Assembly: GCA_007693385.1 (NCBI GenBank)
Contig: REDR01000044.1
Location: 1-52,510, forward strand
Direction of reading: 5' to 3'
Source of the DNA: Anaerolineaceae bacterium
GTDB taxonomy: Bacteria > Chloroflexota > Anaerolineae > Aggregatilineales > Phototrophicaceae
DNA length: 52,510 nucleotides
In this document: positions 41,379 through 48,335 of the stretch, piece by piece
Numbering within the stretch: the first letter of the stretch is position 1
Layout of the letters: each line of letters begins with the position of its first letter
Notes under the pieces: generated by a model
The model's input: the letters and a program-made list of their open reading frames with translations, nothing else
Databases searched by the model: none
Told to the model about the DNA's origin: nothing
Program-made: the position numbers and the translations under genes

Positions 41379-41586
41379 AATCCCCCGATGCGCCGTCCGC
41401 CGCCCCGCAGTGGGTGGCTGGCCGGTGCGGGCGCTGAATTACGCCCACGCATCCCTCACAGCCCACTCCCGCAAGCGCGGTGACTTGTATCTAAGTTTAT
41501 TTACTGCTAAACTTTGGGTTATCATCAACTAACGAGCCTGTTTGTAACGTTATGCGCTACAGGTGAGGATTGAGGGAGTAATTCTA
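41379..41586 (+). other. Intergenic region before the oxoamine synthase
   Basis: 208 bases, GC-rich in the first half and AT-rich in the second. TTGTAT (41485-41490) and TAAACT (41508-41513), 17 bases apart, are a weak promoter candidate. GGGAG at 41573 is the ribosome site of the next gene. Nothing else is recognised. Confidence 0.35.
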
Positions 41587-42801
41587 GTGGCTGACTTATT
41601 CGATAAAGCAAAAAAATATACGCGGGCCAAAGAAGCAATGGAAGCCGGCCTTTACCCGTTTTTCCGCGCATTGAGCGACTCCGAAGGCACAACCGCCACG
41701 TTTGAAGGGCGGGAAGTCGTGATGCTCGGCTCGAATAATTATCTGGGGCTGACGACTGATCCCAGAGTACGCGGCGCGGCGGAAGAAGCATTGCGACGCT
41801 ACGGCACCAGCGTGACCGGATCGCGTTTTTTGAATGGCACGCTAGAACTGCATCTTGAGCTTGACCGCCGGTTGGCGGAATTCGTCGGCAAAGAGGCGGC
41901 GATGGTGTTTCCGACTGGCTATCAGACCAACGTCGGCACGATCTCCGCGCTGGTCGCCAAAGGCGATTATCTGATTATCGACAAAGAAGCGCACGCCTGC
42001 GTGGTGGACGGCGGCATGATGTCACGCGGCGAGATGAAGCGCTTCAAGCACAACGACACAGCCGATCTGGAGCGCGTGCTGGCAAGCCTGCCGGAAGACG
42101 CCGGTAAGCTGGTCGTGGTGGATGGCGTGTACAGCATGGGCGGCGACATCGCCCCACTACCGGGGATATTGCAGGTGTGCAAGCGCTACGGGGCGCGGGT
42201 GATGATCGACGACGCGCACGGCATCGGCGTGACCGGTGGCGGACGTGGCACGGCGGCGCATTACGGCCTGACCGATGAGGTCGATCTGATTATGGGCACG
42301 TTCAGCAAGAGCTTCGCCTCCATTGGTGGCTTCATCGCCGGTACTGCGGAAGTGGTGCATTACATCCAGCATAACGCCCGCGCGTTGATCTTCTCCGCCG
42401 CCCTGCCCGCGCCGAATGTGGTCGCGGTACTCAAGGCGCTGGAAATCATCGAGAGCGAGCCGCAACACGTCAAATCATTGTGGGAAAATGCCGATTACAT
42501 GCGCGACGGCCTGCGTAATCTCGGCTATAACGTCGGCAACAGCAACACGCCGATCATTCCGGTCATCATCGGCGAAGATTACCGCACCATGCTCTCGTGG
42601 CACGCGCTGATCCATGAGGGCGTGTATACCAACCCCGTCGGACCGCCCGGCGTGCCGCCCAACCAGAGTTTATTGCGTACCAGCTACATGGCGACGCACC
42701 GCCGCGAACATCTGGATCGGGCGCTGGCCGCGTTCGAGATCGTCGGCAACAACCTTGACCTGATCGCGCAGAAACAGCCGGATAGCACCATCGGCAAGTA
42801 A
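41587..42801 (+). CDS. Alpha-oxoamine synthase (KBL/BioF/serine palmitoyltransferase type)
   Basis: 404 residues, type I PLP fold. GSNNYLGLTTDPRV, the GTSVTGSRFLNGT block, the aspartate in MIDDAHGIGVTG and the PLP lysine Lys241 in TFSKSFASIGGFIAG define the family. The family condenses an amino acid with an acyl-CoA: glycine with acetyl-CoA (KBL), alanine with pimeloyl (BioF) or serine with palmitoyl-CoA (SPT). The S-F-A-S-I-G-G-F motif and ARALIFSAALP resemble bacterial SPT, but this cannot be settled by eye. The GTG start at 41587 is chosen because GGGAG lies nine bases upstream; another GTG at 41563 would put that site inside the gene. Confidence 0.88.
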   Translation: MADLFDKAKKYTRAKEAMEAGLYPFFRALSDSEGTTATFEGREVVMLGSNNYLGLTTDPRVRGAAEEALRRYGTSVTGSRFLNGTLELHLELDRRLAEFVGKEAAMVFPTGYQTNVGTISALVAKGDYLIIDKEAHACVVDGGMMSRGEMKRFKHNDTADLERVLASLPEDAGKLVVVDGVYSMGGDIAPLPGILQVCKRYGARVMIDDAHGIGVTGGGRGTAAHYGLTDEVDLIMGTFSKSFASIGGFIAGTAEVVHYIQHNARALIFSAALPAPNVVAVLKALEIIESEPQHVKSLWENADYMRDGLRNLGYNVGNSNTPIIPVIIGEDYRTMLSWHALIHEGVYTNPVGPPGVPPNQSLLRTSYMATHRREHLDRALAAFEIVGNNLDLIAQKQPDSTIGK

Positions 42802-42869: not shown

Positions 42870-45800
42870 TTAAGAGGCGTCCCGCGTCTCGGCGTCCTTG
42901 CGGAAGGACAGCAGGCGATGGATGGGCGATAGCACGCTAAAGACCACCGGCACCACGATCAGCGTCAGGAACGTACTACTGAACACACCACCGATCACCA
43001 CTGTGCCCAGTTCCGACGCGATGATCGCGCCTTCTGATAGGCCGATGGCTAGCGGCGTCAGCGCGATGATGGTCGCCAACGAAGTCATCAGGATAGGCCG
43101 CAGACGCCGCCCGCCCGCTTCCACCAGCGCATCGTAGAGCGGCATCCCGCGCTCGCGGCGGTTGGAGCGCACGCGGTCGATCAGCACCACGCCGTTAGCG
43201 ATCACCAGACCGATCAACATCAGCAGACCGATCATCGCGGAGATACCCAGCACGCGATCCGTCAACGTCAGCGCGATAGCCGCGCCAATCGGGGCGACCA
43301 TGATGCTGAACACAATCGCCAGCCAATAGACGAACGATTGCATCGTCGCGCTGAGGATGATAATCACCAACCCGATCGCCAATATGATGGCGAAGCCGAT
43401 ACTCTGGAAGCCTTCCGTCTGCACTTCACTCTCGAAGCCTTCGCTGACGGTGAAGCAATCGCCGCCATTGTCGCCGGACGCGCACAGGTTCGGCGCGATT
43501 TCCGGTAGCGAACGGATGGCCTCAATCGCTTCTTGCGTCACGCCGATGGTATTCTCGGTGTTCAGTTCGGCGCTATAGGAGAAAGCCTCCACCCCATTCA
43601 CGCGGATGAACGTGGCGACGCTGGTATCGTCCGCCGCTTCGATGAAGTTACTGCTGGCACGGCTCAGGCCGTCGATGGCGTTGATGCGCTCGACGATCTG
43701 CTCGTTAAGCTCTGATGTCAACGGGCCGGACACCACCAGATCGAAGCCGCCGAAGCCGCCATCAGCGATAGCGGCCGCCTGCACCGTGACGTTATTGCTG
43801 ATCGGGCTACCGTCCGCGCATACGATGTCAGGGGCGCTATCCACGATGCCGACTTCCATCAAGGCGCGTTGTTCCGGCGAGTTGGCCGGCGCGGATGAAG
43901 TCGGGCAGGTGTTGAAGATGCGCTTAGCTTCTAGCTCAACTTCGCGGGTGATGTCGGCCAGTTCGCCTTCCGACACGCCCAGCCCAACCGTGATCGCCGC
44001 CCGATTTTCGGAGACGGCATTGCCGGTCAACAGAGCCTCAAAGCCAGCCGCACCGCCGCCGACGATGGTCTGTATCGCGGTGATGCTCTCCGCCGGATAC
44101 GTCTCCACGATCCAGTCTTCGAGCACGACGACAAGCTCATTGGTGCGCACGACGGATGTGCCGCCGGGCAATGTGACCTCAATCGACACTTGCGGCTCGC
44201 CGAAGTTCGGCAGGAAGGCGAACGGACGTTGCCCGAACAGGAAACCGGCCACACCGATGGAGGCGATAGCCAGCAAGATGACGCCGGATTTCGTCCAGCG
44301 ATTACGCAACGCGAACTCTAGCGACGGGCGATAGTATTGCGCCAGCCACAGGTCTTGATCTTCCGGCGTGTCTTCGATGTCGATGAACAGGTAAGCCAGC
44401 ACCGGCACGACGGTGATCGCCACCACGAACGAGCCGACCAGCGCATACGTCACCGCCAGACCGAACGGCAGGAAGAACGCGCCGATGATGCCGCCGGTCA
44501 AACCGAGTGGCAAGAACACGCTAGCGGCGATCAAGCTGGCGGCGAAGATGGCGGCGGATACGTCCCGCGTGCCCTGTATGATGGCATCTTTCTTGATGCG
44601 TTGTTTTTCTTCTTTGCTGGCATCGGCTAGCGTGCTGGTCACCTGTAGCTGACGGAAGATATTCTCCAGCACCACAATCGAGTCATCGACCACGCGCCCC
44701 ACCGCTACCGTCAAGCCGGAAAGCGTCATGATGTTCAGCGTCAGGTCACCCGGGAACAGGTTCAGCAAGAAGCCGAAGAAGCCGCCGCCTTCGCCTAGCG
44801 GAGTCAACAGCGTATTCATGGCGGGGGCGACCCAGTACATGCCGACGAGCGCGGTCATGATGGATAGCGGAATGCTGACCGCGATGACCAGCGTCGCCCG
44901 CCATGACGGATCGGGCACGTTACCCGGCCAGAACATCACCAGAAAACCGGCGATCACTCCGAAGATCAGCAGGACGCGCAACACCACATCTGCGCGATCA
45001 AACGCCAGACCCCAGTCGCCACCGGCATCGCCGACGTTCAGCGCGACCAGCGCAAATAGCGCGGCGAGAAATAGCGCGGTCATGATACTGCCGACCAGTC
45101 GCCGCCCGCGCAGATTCCACGTACCACCACTGAGGAAGATCAAGATGATGATGACCGCGAACACCGCGCCCAGACTGCCCTCACGGGCGACGCCTTCGAT
45201 TGATTCTTCGATGAAGCTGGATTGCTCGAACACCACGCCGATCTCGATATTGTCGTTTTCGGCGTCAATCGCGCTGAGCAGGTTGAACACCGCCGCATAG
45301 GTCGAGACGGTGTTGGCGTCCGCGTCCTTGAATACGGTGATGAACAGGCTGTCGTTGCCGTTGGTGCGCGTGATCTGGCTGGTCGGCTGGAAGAGATCAG
45401 CGCGGGCGCGGGCGCGTTCCTGCGCTTCTTCCGGCAGAACCGCCAGCGTCTCCTCCGGCAGTAAGGTCAACGCCCGATTCGAGAGCCGATTGAAGAAATC
45501 CGGATCGCGCTCCTGTATGTATTGCGCCGCCGAGCGCGGGAAGCCGCCCAACCATATCGGCGCGGAATTCTCGCCCTGCGGGTTGTCAAACAGGCTGTCG
45601 ATCAACTGTGCGCCATCCGCGAACGGGAAATCCGGCGGGAAGCGGAAGAAGTCATCAGCGCTGTTCAGTTCGATGTTGTAGAAGTTGCCGAGATTCTGCC
45701 AGCCCGGATTGAGGTCAGGCGCGGCGGGGTCGGCGGGTGGTACATCGCTGGCGTACAGCGCGGCCAACTGCGCGAACGCGGACTCGTCGGCATCAGCGCG

Positions 45801-48335
45801 GATTTCTAGCAGGCGCTCCGCCTGTGTGTCGTCGATACCGGCCAACCCTTCGATCTCGTCCACCGTCAGCATATTGAGCGTTTCGCTCGACATACTGAGC
45901 AACACGGCGGGTTCTAACGCCGCGAAGAAGTCCGGCTCAACCTCAAGGAAGATATTCACGATGTCGGGGCGCAGGCTGTCGATCAACCGCACGGTGTAGC
46001 TATCCAGCAATTCGCCGACTTCCGCCGAGCTAATGCGGTTCAACACGCCGGACACGCGCCCATCATCGCTGAGTGCGAAGATGTCATCGGTGGTGAAGAA
46101 GGTGCGCGGCGCGGTCAACGTCTGCGCTAGCAACGCCTCCCACGCTTCCGGCGCACGGTCAGCAGGCACATCAGCGCGGACGGATTCCGGCAGAGCCGCC
46201 ACCGCGTCATCGGTCAGGAAGACCAGCACCGGCGCGGGCAAGCTGGCGAAGAAGTCCGGCGCGGTCTCCGTGATGTAGGCGACGGCATCCGGCGGCATGT
46301 TGGCGAATAGGCCGCTTAACAGACCGGCGCTATTGGGAATGGCGAACAATTCCGGCAGGATGAAGCCGATAGGCACCGCCGGATTGAGCAGATCGTCCGC
46401 CGTCTGCAATGTCACCGGCGAGCCGGTGAATGTGGCGAGCAGTTCGGCCAGATCGCCCCATTCCGGATTAAGCGCGGGCGCGTCACTCTCAGCGACGGCG
46501 GGCGCATCCGCGCCAAGCACGGCAGAGGCGGAAGCGCTCAGCAGTGCGATTGTTTCCGGCGTCAGCGTCTCCGCGAAGTCGGCTTCGTTGGCGGCTAGAT
46601 AGGCGATATTGTCCGCCGATAGATTGCCGAGCAGAAGCGGCGCGAATTGGTCGAGCAAGCCGGGCGGCACATCCGCGAACCCTTCCGGCAGTTCATCCGC
46701 CGGGATTTGCGTCAGGTCGGGTGGATTCGCCAGAATGTTGAGGAATTCCGCCGCGCTGATCGTCTCCGCATCGAACAGGAAGCGGCCTTCTTCCGGCACT
46801 GTCAGCCCGAGCAGATCGCTTGTGTTCTGCAACGGCACGCCGAGCAAGTCCGATAGCTGGCCGAACAGCGCCGGTAATGGCGCATCTTCGACGGTAGTCG
46901 GCGGCGTCTCCGCGTCATCTTCGCTGATGGCGTCATCGGCATCCGTATCAGATGGCAGGTCGATCAACGCTTCAGCCAGCGTCAAATCACCGGTGGAGGC
47001 CACGCTGAACGTCGCTAGCGGAATATCCGAGAAGCTAAACGTGATTAACTGCGGCGGTTGGACGCGCCACGCATCCGGCAATTCAACCGGCGGGAGCGCC
47101 ACCGCTTCGGCAGATTCACCGGCGATGTTGGCCGCCATGATGCGGGCGGCGATGGCGTCGCGGGTGAAGCCGTCAAACAGCGCGATGACCTCATCACGGC
47201 TGGTCAGGTACGCGAACACATCATCCGGCAATGCCAGAATATGATCGGAGTCGAAATAGGCCGCCATCGTCGGGTCTAAGTCCAGCATACGCTCGACGGT
47301 ATCCAGAGTCAGATGGCTGGTCAGCCCTAGCGAACCGCGCACGATGCCATCGCGCAGTAGATTATTCAGCACACCGGCGGGCGTCAAACCGAAACCGACG
47401 ATTTCTAGCAGGTCGTTGGCGTCGTTGAACAGCGTCGGGGTGCCGTCGGCGGTGATGCGCCAGCTTTCCGGCAATTCGGGCACGTCAAGCGGGGCGGGCA
47501 CGGTCACATCCACCGCGCTCAAGCGTTCGATGGCGCTGTCGTCCAGTTCGCCCAGACCGTCCACCCGCGCCGAGACAATCGACCAGACATCAGGCGACAG
47601 GCGCAAGATTAAGCGGCCACCGGCCTCATCGGTGACGGTCTGCGGGGCGGGTTCGTCCTCATCAGTCGGCAAGGTTTCGCCGCCGCTAACGTCCACGTTG
47701 GCGACATTATCAATCGCACCCAACTGCGGCACGATCTCTTTATCAACCAGCCGTTGTAGCGCGTTCGCGCCGGATGTGGCTTCGTCTTCCTGTTGCGCCA
47801 TGTACGCCAGCACAATCTCAATCGTCGCGGTGTCCAGCGTCTCCCATATTTCCGGCGTTAGCTGGAACAAGAAGTTGGAGTCGCTCTCCGCCATGAACAG
47901 CAAGACATCCGGCGTCAAAGCCGCGATCAACGCGGCGGGGTCATCCGGCTCTAGCGCCCGCGATGGCAACCACACATCGCGCAGAGCTTCGCGGATTGTC
48001 TCCTGCAGAGCCGCTTGATCCTGTCCGAAGTCGTTAAACGCGGTGATGAACGATCCGAAGGACGATTGCGTTTCGGATTGCAGGTTGATGATCTCATCAA
48101 TCTGGCTCAACCGATCTTCAATCGGCTGGGTGACGATGGTCAACACCTGCTCGCTATCCATGCCGCTAGTCTGCGTCAGGATGATCGTCTGCGGGATTTC
48201 GATAGGGGGCAATAGCTCTTGATTCAGTTGCGTCCATGCGATGACACCTAGCGCCATCAGCACGAAGACCGCGCCAATGGTGAGCGCCCGAAAGCGCAAC
48301 GCGAAGCGCGTTATTTTATCTAAGATGAACCTCAT
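42870..48335 (-). CDS. Giant RND-family transporter with an about 850-residue repeat-bearing periplasmic insertion
   Basis: 1,821 residues; usual RND pumps have about 1,030. Residues 1-35 form TM1 and 40-125 a porter-like start (NQELLPPIEIPQTIILTQ). TM helices resume at about 1054, with the proton-relay helix GRVVDDSIVVLENI (1213-1226), a second porter domain (about 1380-1640) and a final TM bundle ending GGVFSSTFLTLIVVPVVF. Short RND-like pieces remain inside the insert (IDNVANVDVSGG at 209-219; RLILRLSPDVW near 241). Residues about 130-980 carry degenerate repeats: [LA]-P-x-x-W boxes near 287, 418, 621, 727 and 874; T-x-D-D-L-L-like boxes near 305, 505, 645, 748 and 892; and Y-I-x-E-x-x-P-D-F-F-like units near 143, 353, 572, 681, 789 and 933. 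No membrane-fusion protein gene is adjacent. Confidence 0.9.
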   Translation of the reverse strand: MRFILDKITRFALRFRALTIGAVFVLMALGVIAWTQLNQELLPPIEIPQTIILTQTSGMDSEQVLTIVTQPIEDRLSQIDEIINLQSETQSSFGSFITAFNDFGQDQAALQETIREALRDVWLPSRALEPDDPAALIAALTPDVLLFMAESDSNFLFQLTPEIWETLDTATIEIVLAYMAQQEDEATSGANALQRLVDKEIVPQLGAIDNVANVDVSGGETLPTDEDEPAPQTVTDEAGGRLILRLSPDVWSIVSARVDGLGELDDSAIERLSAVDVTVPAPLDVPELPESWRITADGTPTLFNDANDLLEIVGFGLTPAGVLNNLLRDGIVRGSLGLTSHLTLDTVERMLDLDPTMAAYFDSDHILALPDDVFAYLTSRDEVIALFDGFTRDAIAARIMAANIAGESAEAVALPPVELPDAWRVQPPQLITFSFSDIPLATFSVASTGDLTLAEALIDLPSDTDADDAISEDDAETPPTTVEDAPLPALFGQLSDLLGVPLQNTSDLLGLTVPEEGRFLFDAETISAAEFLNILANPPDLTQIPADELPEGFADVPPGLLDQFAPLLLGNLSADNIAYLAANEADFAETLTPETIALLSASASAVLGADAPAVAESDAPALNPEWGDLAELLATFTGSPVTLQTADDLLNPAVPIGFILPELFAIPNSAGLLSGLFANMPPDAVAYITETAPDFFASLPAPVLVFLTDDAVAALPESVRADVPADRAPEAWEALLAQTLTAPRTFFTTDDIFALSDDGRVSGVLNRISSAEVGELLDSYTVRLIDSLRPDIVNIFLEVEPDFFAALEPAVLLSMSSETLNMLTVDEIEGLAGIDDTQAERLLEIRADADESAFAQLAALYASDVPPADPAAPDLNPGWQNLGNFYNIELNSADDFFRFPPDFPFADGAQLIDSLFDNPQGENSAPIWLGGFPRSAAQYIQERDPDFFNRLSNRALTLLPEETLAVLPEEAQERARARADLFQPTSQITRTNGNDSLFITVFKDADANTVSTYAAVFNLLSAIDAENDNIEIGVVFEQSSFIEESIEGVAREGSLGAVFAVIIILIFLSGGTWNLRGRRLVGSIMTALFLAALFALVALNVGDAGGDWGLAFDRADVVLRVLLIFGVIAGFLVMFWPGNVPDPSWRATLVIAVSIPLSIMTALVGMYWVAPAMNTLLTPLGEGGGFFGFLLNLFPGDLTLNIMTLSGLTVAVGRVVDDSIVVLENIFRQLQVTSTLADASKEEKQRIKKDAIIQGTRDVSAAIFAASLIAASVFLPLGLTGGIIGAFFLPFGLAVTYALVGSFVVAITVVPVLAYLFIDIEDTPEDQDLWLAQYYRPSLEFALRNRWTKSGVILLAIASIGVAGFLFGQRPFAFLPNFGEPQVSIEVTLPGGTSVVRTNELVVVLEDWIVETYPAESITAIQTIVGGGAAGFEALLTGNAVSENRAAITVGLGVSEGELADITREVELEAKRIFNTCPTSSAPANSPEQRALMEVGIVDSAPDIVCADGSPISNNVTVQAAAIADGGFGGFDLVVSGPLTSELNEQIVERINAIDGLSRASSNFIEAADDTSVATFIRVNGVEAFSYSAELNTENTIGVTQEAIEAIRSLPEIAPNLCASGDNGGDCFTVSEGFESEVQTEGFQSIGFAIILAIGLVIIILSATMQSFVYWLAIVFSIMVAPIGAAIALTLTDRVLGISAMIGLLMLIGLVIANGVVLIDRVRSNRRERGMPLYDALVEAGGRRLRPILMTSLATIIALTPLAIGLSEGAIIASELGTVVIGGVFSSTFLTLIVVPVVFSVLSPIHRLLSFRKDAETRDAS

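Follow-up and report, generated by a model that had tools for sequence, protein, structure and literature searches.

A Chloroflexota RND permease with a repeat-built first periplasmic loop and a reordered porter subdomain

Background

In the later structures of AcrB-type (HAE1) pumps, which are resistance-nodulation-division (RND) permeases, an adaptor lies between AcrB and TolC. An earlier docking model placed AcrB D256, located on the first exposed hairpin, at the TolC interface (PMC2292822). Two mycobacterial RND proteins of the MmpL (HAE2) type, i.e., MmpL5 and MmpL10, carry a large helical insert of their own (PMC12501195; PMC12183618), and that of MmpL5 is a 196-residue coiled coil, predicted to form a tube of 13 nm and needed for efflux (PMC12501195). 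Hot spots for RND inserts have been placed between strand 2 and strand 3 and, in SecDF only, after helix 2 (PMC8277102, section 52).

Here, we describe an RND permease encoded on the reverse strand, at positions 42,870 to 48,335, of a 52,510-nucleotide stretch of DNA (referred to as the window) from an Anaerolineaceae bacterium of the Chloroflexota (contig REDR01000044.1, GenBank assembly GCA_007693385.1). Its first periplasmic loop is built from repeated modules, and pieces of its PN2 porter subdomain stand in reversed order. The closest precedent is MmpL5, from which the window pump differs in that hundreds of residues of short-helix modules are placed in the first loop, as compared to 196 residues of coiled coil in periplasmic domain 2. 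The module sites also resemble the hot spots for inserts in SecDF and hopanoid/NPC1-type RND proteins, a likeness of site, although the window pump uses both sites in one loop; section 52 of PMC8277102 makes no mention of a swapped porter order. With AcrB-type pumps the window pump shares the ACR_tran match, the transmembrane core, the porter domains and the aspartate pair of transmembrane helix (TM) 4; it differs from them in that the docking-crown subdomain DN is replaced by a module array, subdomain DC is cut, the PN2 pieces are swapped throughout its family, two hydrophobic segments are added and the genome has neither an adaptor nor a TolC-type protein above cut-off. We propose, with a probability of about 0.5, that this protein is an adaptor-free, proton-driven RND exporter with a rebuilt crown and a built-in extracytoplasmic extension.

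Results

The permease comprises 1,821 residues, with a purine-rich stretch preceding its ATG, and is an RND member by profile, as a preliminary description made from the sequence alone had held: Pfam ACR_tran matches it with 347.7 bits (E = 1.7e-103; cut-off 28). Pfam SecD_SecF_C also passed its gathering score (27.2 bits; cut-off 20.5), which we read as the shared RND membrane fold, its score being far under that of ACR_tran; the NCBIfam SecD/SecF profiles remained under their cut-offs (27.8 against 148.6 bits for 2A0604s01; 25.6 against 160 bits for transloc_SecF). Following TM1 (residues 11-38 by hydropathy; 48,222-48,305; this and all further coordinates within the gene are on the reverse strand), the loop to TM2 spans approx. 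1,018 residues, as compared to 298-326 residues in 23 canonical RND proteins of the class, and the first loop has a net charge of -137, as compared to -3 to -23 in 23 canonical RND proteins.

The proposal that this loop is built from repeats was borne out. In a self-alignment of residues 216-985, the two best alignments scored 161 and 152, whereas none of 25 shuffles exceeded 81 (the third-best scored 89, and the remaining ones fell within the shuffle range). Moreover, a module profile that started from seven seed modules (families f42, f40 and f23) and ended at 75 positions found six copies in the window pump with E values of 1e-10 to 2e-15, i.e., copy 1 (residues 135-197; 47,745-47,933; E = 1e-14), copy 2 (residues 336-398; 47,142-47,330), copy 3 (residues 563-618; 46,482-46,649; E = 1e-10), copy 4 (residues 663-727; 46,155-46,349; E = 2e-15), copy 5 (residues 779-839; 45,819-46,001; E = 1e-13) and copy 6 (residues 914-977; 45,405-45,596; E = 3e-15). 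Most family relatives have five copies. The final profile was iterated on these same proteins and the seed profile was built without any sequence of the window's family; used alone on the window pump, the seed profile picked out almost identical positions for all six copies, with weak hits only (E = 1e-4 to 0.44), indicating that the window hits owe their strength to relatives. Among 66 rows (near-duplicates counted), the seed and final profiles gave 173 and 311 hits at E < 1e-3, respectively, and with either profile the reversed and block-shuffled controls gave 0 hits. A profile of the last module also recovered further copies within the window protein. The three clearest repeat units of the preliminary description (PDFF boxes at residues 681-715, 789-823 and 933-967) were found as described; its five [LA]-P-x-x-W and five T/S-x-D-D-L/F-L/F boxes were reduced to three and two occurrences, respectively, of the strict patterns (the latter as [TS]xDD[LF][LF]), with the others being variants.

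No NCBIfam or Pfam family matched the window insert at E ≤ 1, and a sequence search of solved structures with the insert returned nothing up to E = 10. Weak Pfam hits scattered over 17 insert members (best 0.0015) were mutually inconsistent and were rejected. In an f42 protein (L161), Methyltransf_14 reached a whole-protein score of 26.4 bits over the module stretch (cut-off 23.5) with no single stretch passing, which we took as chance summed over near-identical repeats.

The order of the PN2 pieces was analyzed with a 66-position profile of strand 1, helix 1 and strand 2. Profile positions 33-65 matched residues 191-223 (helix 1 and strand 2; 47,667-47,765; E = 3e-9) and positions 5-34 matched residues 425-455 (E = 4e-7); the order is thus reversed, with helix 1 and strand 2 displaced upstream and strand 1 located approx. 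200 residues after them. Residues 425-447 (46,995-47,063) comprise the last strand of subdomain PN1 together with PN2 strand 1, and strand 3, helix 2 and strand 4 are found at residues 990-1037 (45,225-45,368; ACR_tran positions 270-354 and predicted secondary structure). The swapped order was present in 33 of 34 distinct proteins of the window's family, the 34th being the downstream ORF (open reading frame) of a split gene. Outside the family the profile was contiguous in 15 of 16 pump rows, with the 16th (L164) being a fragment that lacks the region; 13 of these 15 relatives helped build the profile and two (L056 and L169) did not, and L163, L167 and L171 are near-copies. Among 23 canonical pumps, 8 matched most of the profile, 6 its second half only and 9 none of it. 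The strand 1 half alone was weak in family relatives (E = 1e-5 to 0.06), yet it was found in the same place, within the most conserved block of the stretch from residue 121 to residue 990.

The first part of PN1 was located at residues 46-128 (47,952-48,200; ACR_tran positions 2-113). In an AlphaFold2 model of residues 1-1075, PN1 superimposed on that of AcrD and AcrB over 90 residues (root mean square deviation, rmsd, 1.7-1.8) with the matched model residues running to 433, so that in the model the last PN1 strand, at about residues 425-433, is supplied after an excursion of 300 residues and completes the PN1 fold; the model places strands at residues 211-218, 441-447, 994-1003 and 1030-1037. 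The claim that residues 130-980 are all extra therefore fails, as residues 191-223 and 425-447 are PN1 and PN2 pieces.

Families f6 and f7 carry a module-bearing excursion in PN1 ahead of its last strand. When the excursions of three f7 proteins were compared to the module copies of six f1 proteins, copy 2 gave z scores of 11.7-32.8 and copy 1 gave z scores of -0.9 to 3.3; copies 1 and 2 of the f1 proteins were weakly alike (z = 0.9-6.2). At the level of sequence, copy 2 is clearly the counterpart of the f7 excursion and copy 1 is not. An origin of the swap by tandem duplication and reciprocal loss was also considered and dropped, given that copy 1 has no counterpart in the f7 excursion and that copies 1 and 2 are only weakly alike.

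The pump gene is split into several ORFs in two relatives (L054 in genome G047 and L050/L092 in genome G028), reflecting either real decay or an assembly error. An annotation or assembly artefact, which split ORFs of this kind could suggest, has a negligible probability for the window pump and is refuted, as separate assemblies yield this architecture in 33 of the 34 distinct family proteins. In a literature search limited to open-access papers, nothing turned up that treats this insert, a permutation within an RND porter domain or a LysM-bearing RND protein in Chloroflexi, and the term "circular permutation" was absent from the examined part of one review.

The docking crown of the window pump is changed. 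ACR_tran positions 114-269 are unmatched, with the module array sitting where DN would be expected, and in the second periplasmic loop (residues 1370-1645; 43,401-44,228) most of DC, i.e., AcrB residues 724-792, has no counterpart. A stretch from AcrB 723-725 to 790-813 was missing in all 16 derived proteins aligned (window included); as the end of this gap depends on the alignment, loss of the second hairpin (D795) is uncertain. The length of loop 2 is 214-240 residues for 25 of the 28 derived rows (the exceptions being the window pump with 275, L049 with 277 and L087 with 344), as compared to 286-339 residues in 23 canonical rows and 415-445 residues in f44. As a separate observation, the window protein has just four cysteines (1477, 1506, 1618 and 1627), all of which fall in this loop, and most of 11 relatives compared have none at these places.

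A tree of 53 chosen RND rows was built from the C-terminal half, with the insert excluded, by a quick search that gave long branches. All 30 insert-bearing pumps fell on one side of a single branch (Shimodaira-Hasegawa-like approximate likelihood ratio test, SH-aLRT, 100), counting L164, a contig-end fragment with a module tail only (E = 0.002). With the canonical pumps taken as outgroup, which is the sense in which "deepest" is used here, two f44 proteins branch first, f23 next, and f42 then separates from f40, f5, f6, f7 and f1. Compared to Escherichia coli AcrB, the f44 proteins L191 and L169 carry 228 and 279 additional residues, respectively, at AcrB 252/253 and further inserts of up to 77 residues, with no AcrB stretch of more than 15 residues missing. 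The L169 insert contains two modules flanking a LysM domain (E = 3.1e-9), and that of L191 contains one module and a LysM-like stretch recognized by eye and not reported by Pfam. Module counts are two in f23 (a contig-end fragment), four to eight in f42 and four in f40. Overall, these alignments show that the deepest relatives hold the modules within the DN hairpin of an otherwise AcrB-like pump, and that in derived pumps the modules are mostly more numerous, DN is replaced and DC is cut, with a second module site in PN1 before its last strand. Each of the two f44 pumps also adjoins a gene with an SdrD_B-like domain, possibly a cell-surface protein (L169, 6,191-7,423; L191, 4,852-5,886).

These data bear on the possibility that the array is a passive spacer or adhesin, i.e., a surface decoration under weak constraint and unrelated to transport. 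Module number changes fast, with a 91-residue unit repeated 2.6 times in the f42 protein of L161 (7,315-8,025) at 90% matching DNA, which indicates recent tandem growth of the array, and the composition of the insert is acidic and low in lysine, as such a decoration might be. However, the insert-bearing rows form one group in the tree, W, D, G and P positions of the insert are invariant across 32 family sequences and the array goes together with the crown change, and we consider this explanation unlikely.

The remainder of the protein, treated as a normal RND transporter in the preliminary description, departs from that plan. The TM4 aspartate pair D1217-D1218 (GRVVDDSIVV; 44,682-44,687) is conserved, with residues 1201-1230 showing a mean identity of 0.91 over 21 proteins; by analogy with AcrB, we take this pair to be the proton relay. 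Besides the missing DC stretch, the departure from a normal RND protein is an extra hydrophobic pair between TM2 and TM3 (residues 1078-1141; 44,913-45,104; hydropathy and motif spacing), which is specific to the window's family: the TM2-TM3 gap is 76-78 residues in this family as compared to 3-12 residues in other insert-bearing families where the motif count worked. The window protein has 14 hydropathy peaks; 23 of 24 comparison rows have 11-12, and one fragment has 7. Three features are absent from the preliminary description, i.e., the PN2 permutation, the shortening of DC and the additional hydrophobic segments. The observations made there were partly confirmed: their substance held, whereas the motif counts and the extent had been overstated.

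The modules are predicted to be helical. An AlphaFold2 model of residues 725-985, which contain copies 5 and 6, is nearly all helix with a mean pLDDT (predicted local distance difference test) of 85.1 and a pTM (predicted template modelling score) of 0.63, the first 20 residues being of poor confidence; copy 5 is modelled with confidence and copy 6 with high confidence. The ordered helices predicted here argue that modules 5 and 6 are not disordered filler, in agreement with the earlier suggestion of helical repeats; that suggestion does not extend as well to copies 3 and 4, which were modelled poorly (pLDDT approx. 30-50 for copy 3). In a fold search the 1-1075 model found RND pumps (best Foldseek E = 1.3e-3). 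With the 725-985 model, Foldseek gave nothing at E ≤ 0.001 in the Protein Data Bank or viral models among the matches listed, and VIA gave a best Z of 4.2 (rmsd 4.0, 96 aligned residues) to a chain of the Ent3 ENTH-Vti1p Habc complex. The weak structural neighbours of this model are armadillo-like (mesothelin, the MgtE N domain, armadillo); with no Foldseek match at E ≤ 0.001 and no VIA Z above 4.2, we do not claim armadillo-like membership for the modules.

An acidic helical array placed at the exit end of the pump could represent a built-in conduit, in which the modules of three protomers form a tube or tall ring as the exit for the substrate, comparable to the coiled coil of MmpL5. The 13 nm predicted tube provides an RND precedent for such a structure (PMC12501195), and helical modules and a strongly acidic loop would suit it. 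On the other hand, the modules are short helices rather than long coils, and a module number that spans 1 to 8 among relatives would be odd for a tube of fixed length. We regard a conduit as improbable.

The insert was matched in 33 of the 61 genomes closest to the window (that of the window among them), four of the 33 (f8) carrying it in the shorter protein described below. Class-wide, insert matches at E ≤ 1e-6 were found in at least 37 of 396 genomes and, phylum-wide, in at least 3 of 400 genomes (own included); these counts are lower bounds, with 2 and 12 candidates scored per genome, respectively. ACR_tran was found at E ≤ 1e-15 in 108 of the 396 class genomes, with many ORFs of approx. 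1,030-1,140 residues among the matches listed. A 107-position module alignment, run against the genome of the window, found this pump only (five places at E ≤ 1e-7, a sixth at 0.07). Across all loci examined, 159 of 3,436 ORFs of at least 100 residues had a module hit at E < 0.01, and these resemble the window pump at E ≤ 1e-5, except for four f8 proteins (five rows) and one protein present in two copies (E = 0.008). Whether the module occurs outside RND proteins, a question raised in the preliminary description, is answered by the f8 proteins (L057, L058, L059 and L060), which have approx. 440-480 residues, a start that resembles a signal peptide by eye and one C-terminal module, and which are probably secreted; in L058, the one f8 protein tested, a squalene-hopene-cyclase-type domain was recognized at 31.5 bits (cut-off 26.1). 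The titles of 31 of the 32 named related records refer to Chloroflexi, Anaerolineae or groups therein. The exception, L077 (JAHHHY010000001.1), bears the name Pleurocapsa minor; as its pump belongs to this Chloroflexota family, the bin is probably mislabelled.

In the 3.59 Mb, 97% complete genome of the window, the pump is the only ACR_tran protein above cut-off, with one sub-threshold match on contig C101. Searches of this genome gave 0 matches for OEP (TolC-type; 7 of 14 control genomes positive), no match for Omp85 (7 of 14 control genomes positive) and no RND_mfp adaptor above 94.9 bits, the cut-off that 8 of 14 control genomes pass; a Pfam scan of 19 ORFs in the window found neither an adaptor nor a mevalonate-type gene. 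As it lacks the DN/DC docking crown, and as the searches gave no adaptor above cut-off and no TolC-type channel, the window pump is not a tripartite HAE1 pump. Chloroflexota are considered monoderm, often multilayered, and without genes for BAM and lipopolysaccharide, with some recent tomograms having a diderm look (PMC13319060).

Convergent with the pump gene lies a gene (41,563-42,798, forward strand) for a pyridoxal-phosphate (PLP) enzyme closest to serine palmitoyltransferase, with a score of 497 bits against NCBIfam SerpalmtaseCFB, the best of 13 families listed and under its curated cut-off of 640. In 25 of the 32 named loci, a serine-palmitoyltransferase-like gene is no more than 0.8 kb away from the pump; in L078 and L079 this gene is upstream on the same strand instead of facing the pump. 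The seven loci without it beside the pump have a downstream flank of at least 1.9 kb (L073, L080, L086 and L090) or of less than 1 kb (L065, L067 and L092). In many flanks among L061-L091 the following genes are polysaccharide-deacetylase-like, HMG-CoA (3-hydroxy-3-methylglutaryl-CoA) reductase-like, HMG-CoA synthase-like and thiolase-like (labels by eye).

A lipid substrate for the pump is at most a fair guess. A more specific alternative is that the protein exports a lipid of the sphingolipid or isoprenoid type, with the array serving as a lipid-carrier or shuttle surface. The conserved neighbour, the HMG-CoA reductase- and synthase-like genes farther along many loci, the module on the squalene-hopene-cyclase-type protein (one of four tested) and the naming of Chloroflexota of class Anaerolineae as possible sphingolipid producers, with Spt-like genes reported (PMC11334938), all favor this possibility. 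However, the enzyme persists without the pump, no mevalonate-type gene was present among the scanned ORFs and the neighbour falls short of the curated cut-off. We consider this alternative less likely than not.

Discussion

We favor the reading of the window pump as an adaptor-free exporter, belonging to one clade of the class Anaerolineae, with a rebuilt crown and a built-in extension. Its porter domain would fold from the swapped pieces and still cycle, and export would be driven by the proton motive force through the porter. The acidic helical array may be the built-in extension, touching or anchoring in cell-wall layers or forming an exit path, and the pump would work without an adaptor or outer channel, releasing an amphiphilic, perhaps lipid, substrate beyond the membrane. 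A stronger version, in which a rearranged porter domain and a crown traded for a wall-reaching repeat conduit would let a single polypeptide act as pump, adaptor and channel at once, within an envelope that is monoderm and multilayered, appears to us quite doubtful.

Several observations weigh against the exporter that we propose. The structural basis consists of partial models (residues 1-1075 and 725-985) of a single chain, and the 1-1075 model is only fair (pLDDT 72.7, pTM 0.55, 32 sequences), with copies 3-4 partly under pLDDT 50; the pairing of PN2 strand 1 with strands 2-4 is one that we infer from it. Contact with the wall rests on one certain LysM domain (L169) and one recognized by eye (L191), with none in the window protein. 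The crown change is not simply explained by the lack of an outer membrane, as the class has many RND proteins of canonical length and all 7 of those aligned keep the whole crown. RND_mfp gave 7 weak matches (16-21 bits) in the genome. Finally, the serine-palmitoyltransferase-like enzyme occurs in 8 genomes of the family in which no pump was detected (G004, G007, G009, G016, G018, G030, G033 and G035), was not found at high identity in three pump genomes (G003, G024 and G028) and, in those f6/f7 genomes that were searched, is placed on other contigs; its occurrence without the pump weakens a functional link between the two genes.

The interpretation offered in the preliminary description is partly supported by these data. 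An envelope without a standard outer membrane agrees with the genome searches for TolC-type channel, Omp85 and adaptor; as a simple cause of the crown change, it would sit poorly with the whole crowns of the 7 canonical-length RND proteins aligned from the class. A standing stalk in place of an adaptor, likewise suggested there, is a conjecture. A grip on the cell wall would fit the LysM domain inside the L169 insert and the position of the insert beside the TolC-docked hairpin in the deepest relatives; the window protein itself has no LysM domain.

Conclusions

The insert-bearing pumps represent a graded natural series, from a kept crown with one or two modules and LysM, through a changed crown with two modules and then four to eight, to a second module site and a swapped core. 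The series illustrates a route by which RND pumps can depart from the tripartite arrangement. Two questions can be addressed with it: by what mechanism an AcrB-type pump operates in cells where neither an adaptor nor an outer channel is detected, and to what extent the porter fold can be rearranged and yet continue to cycle.

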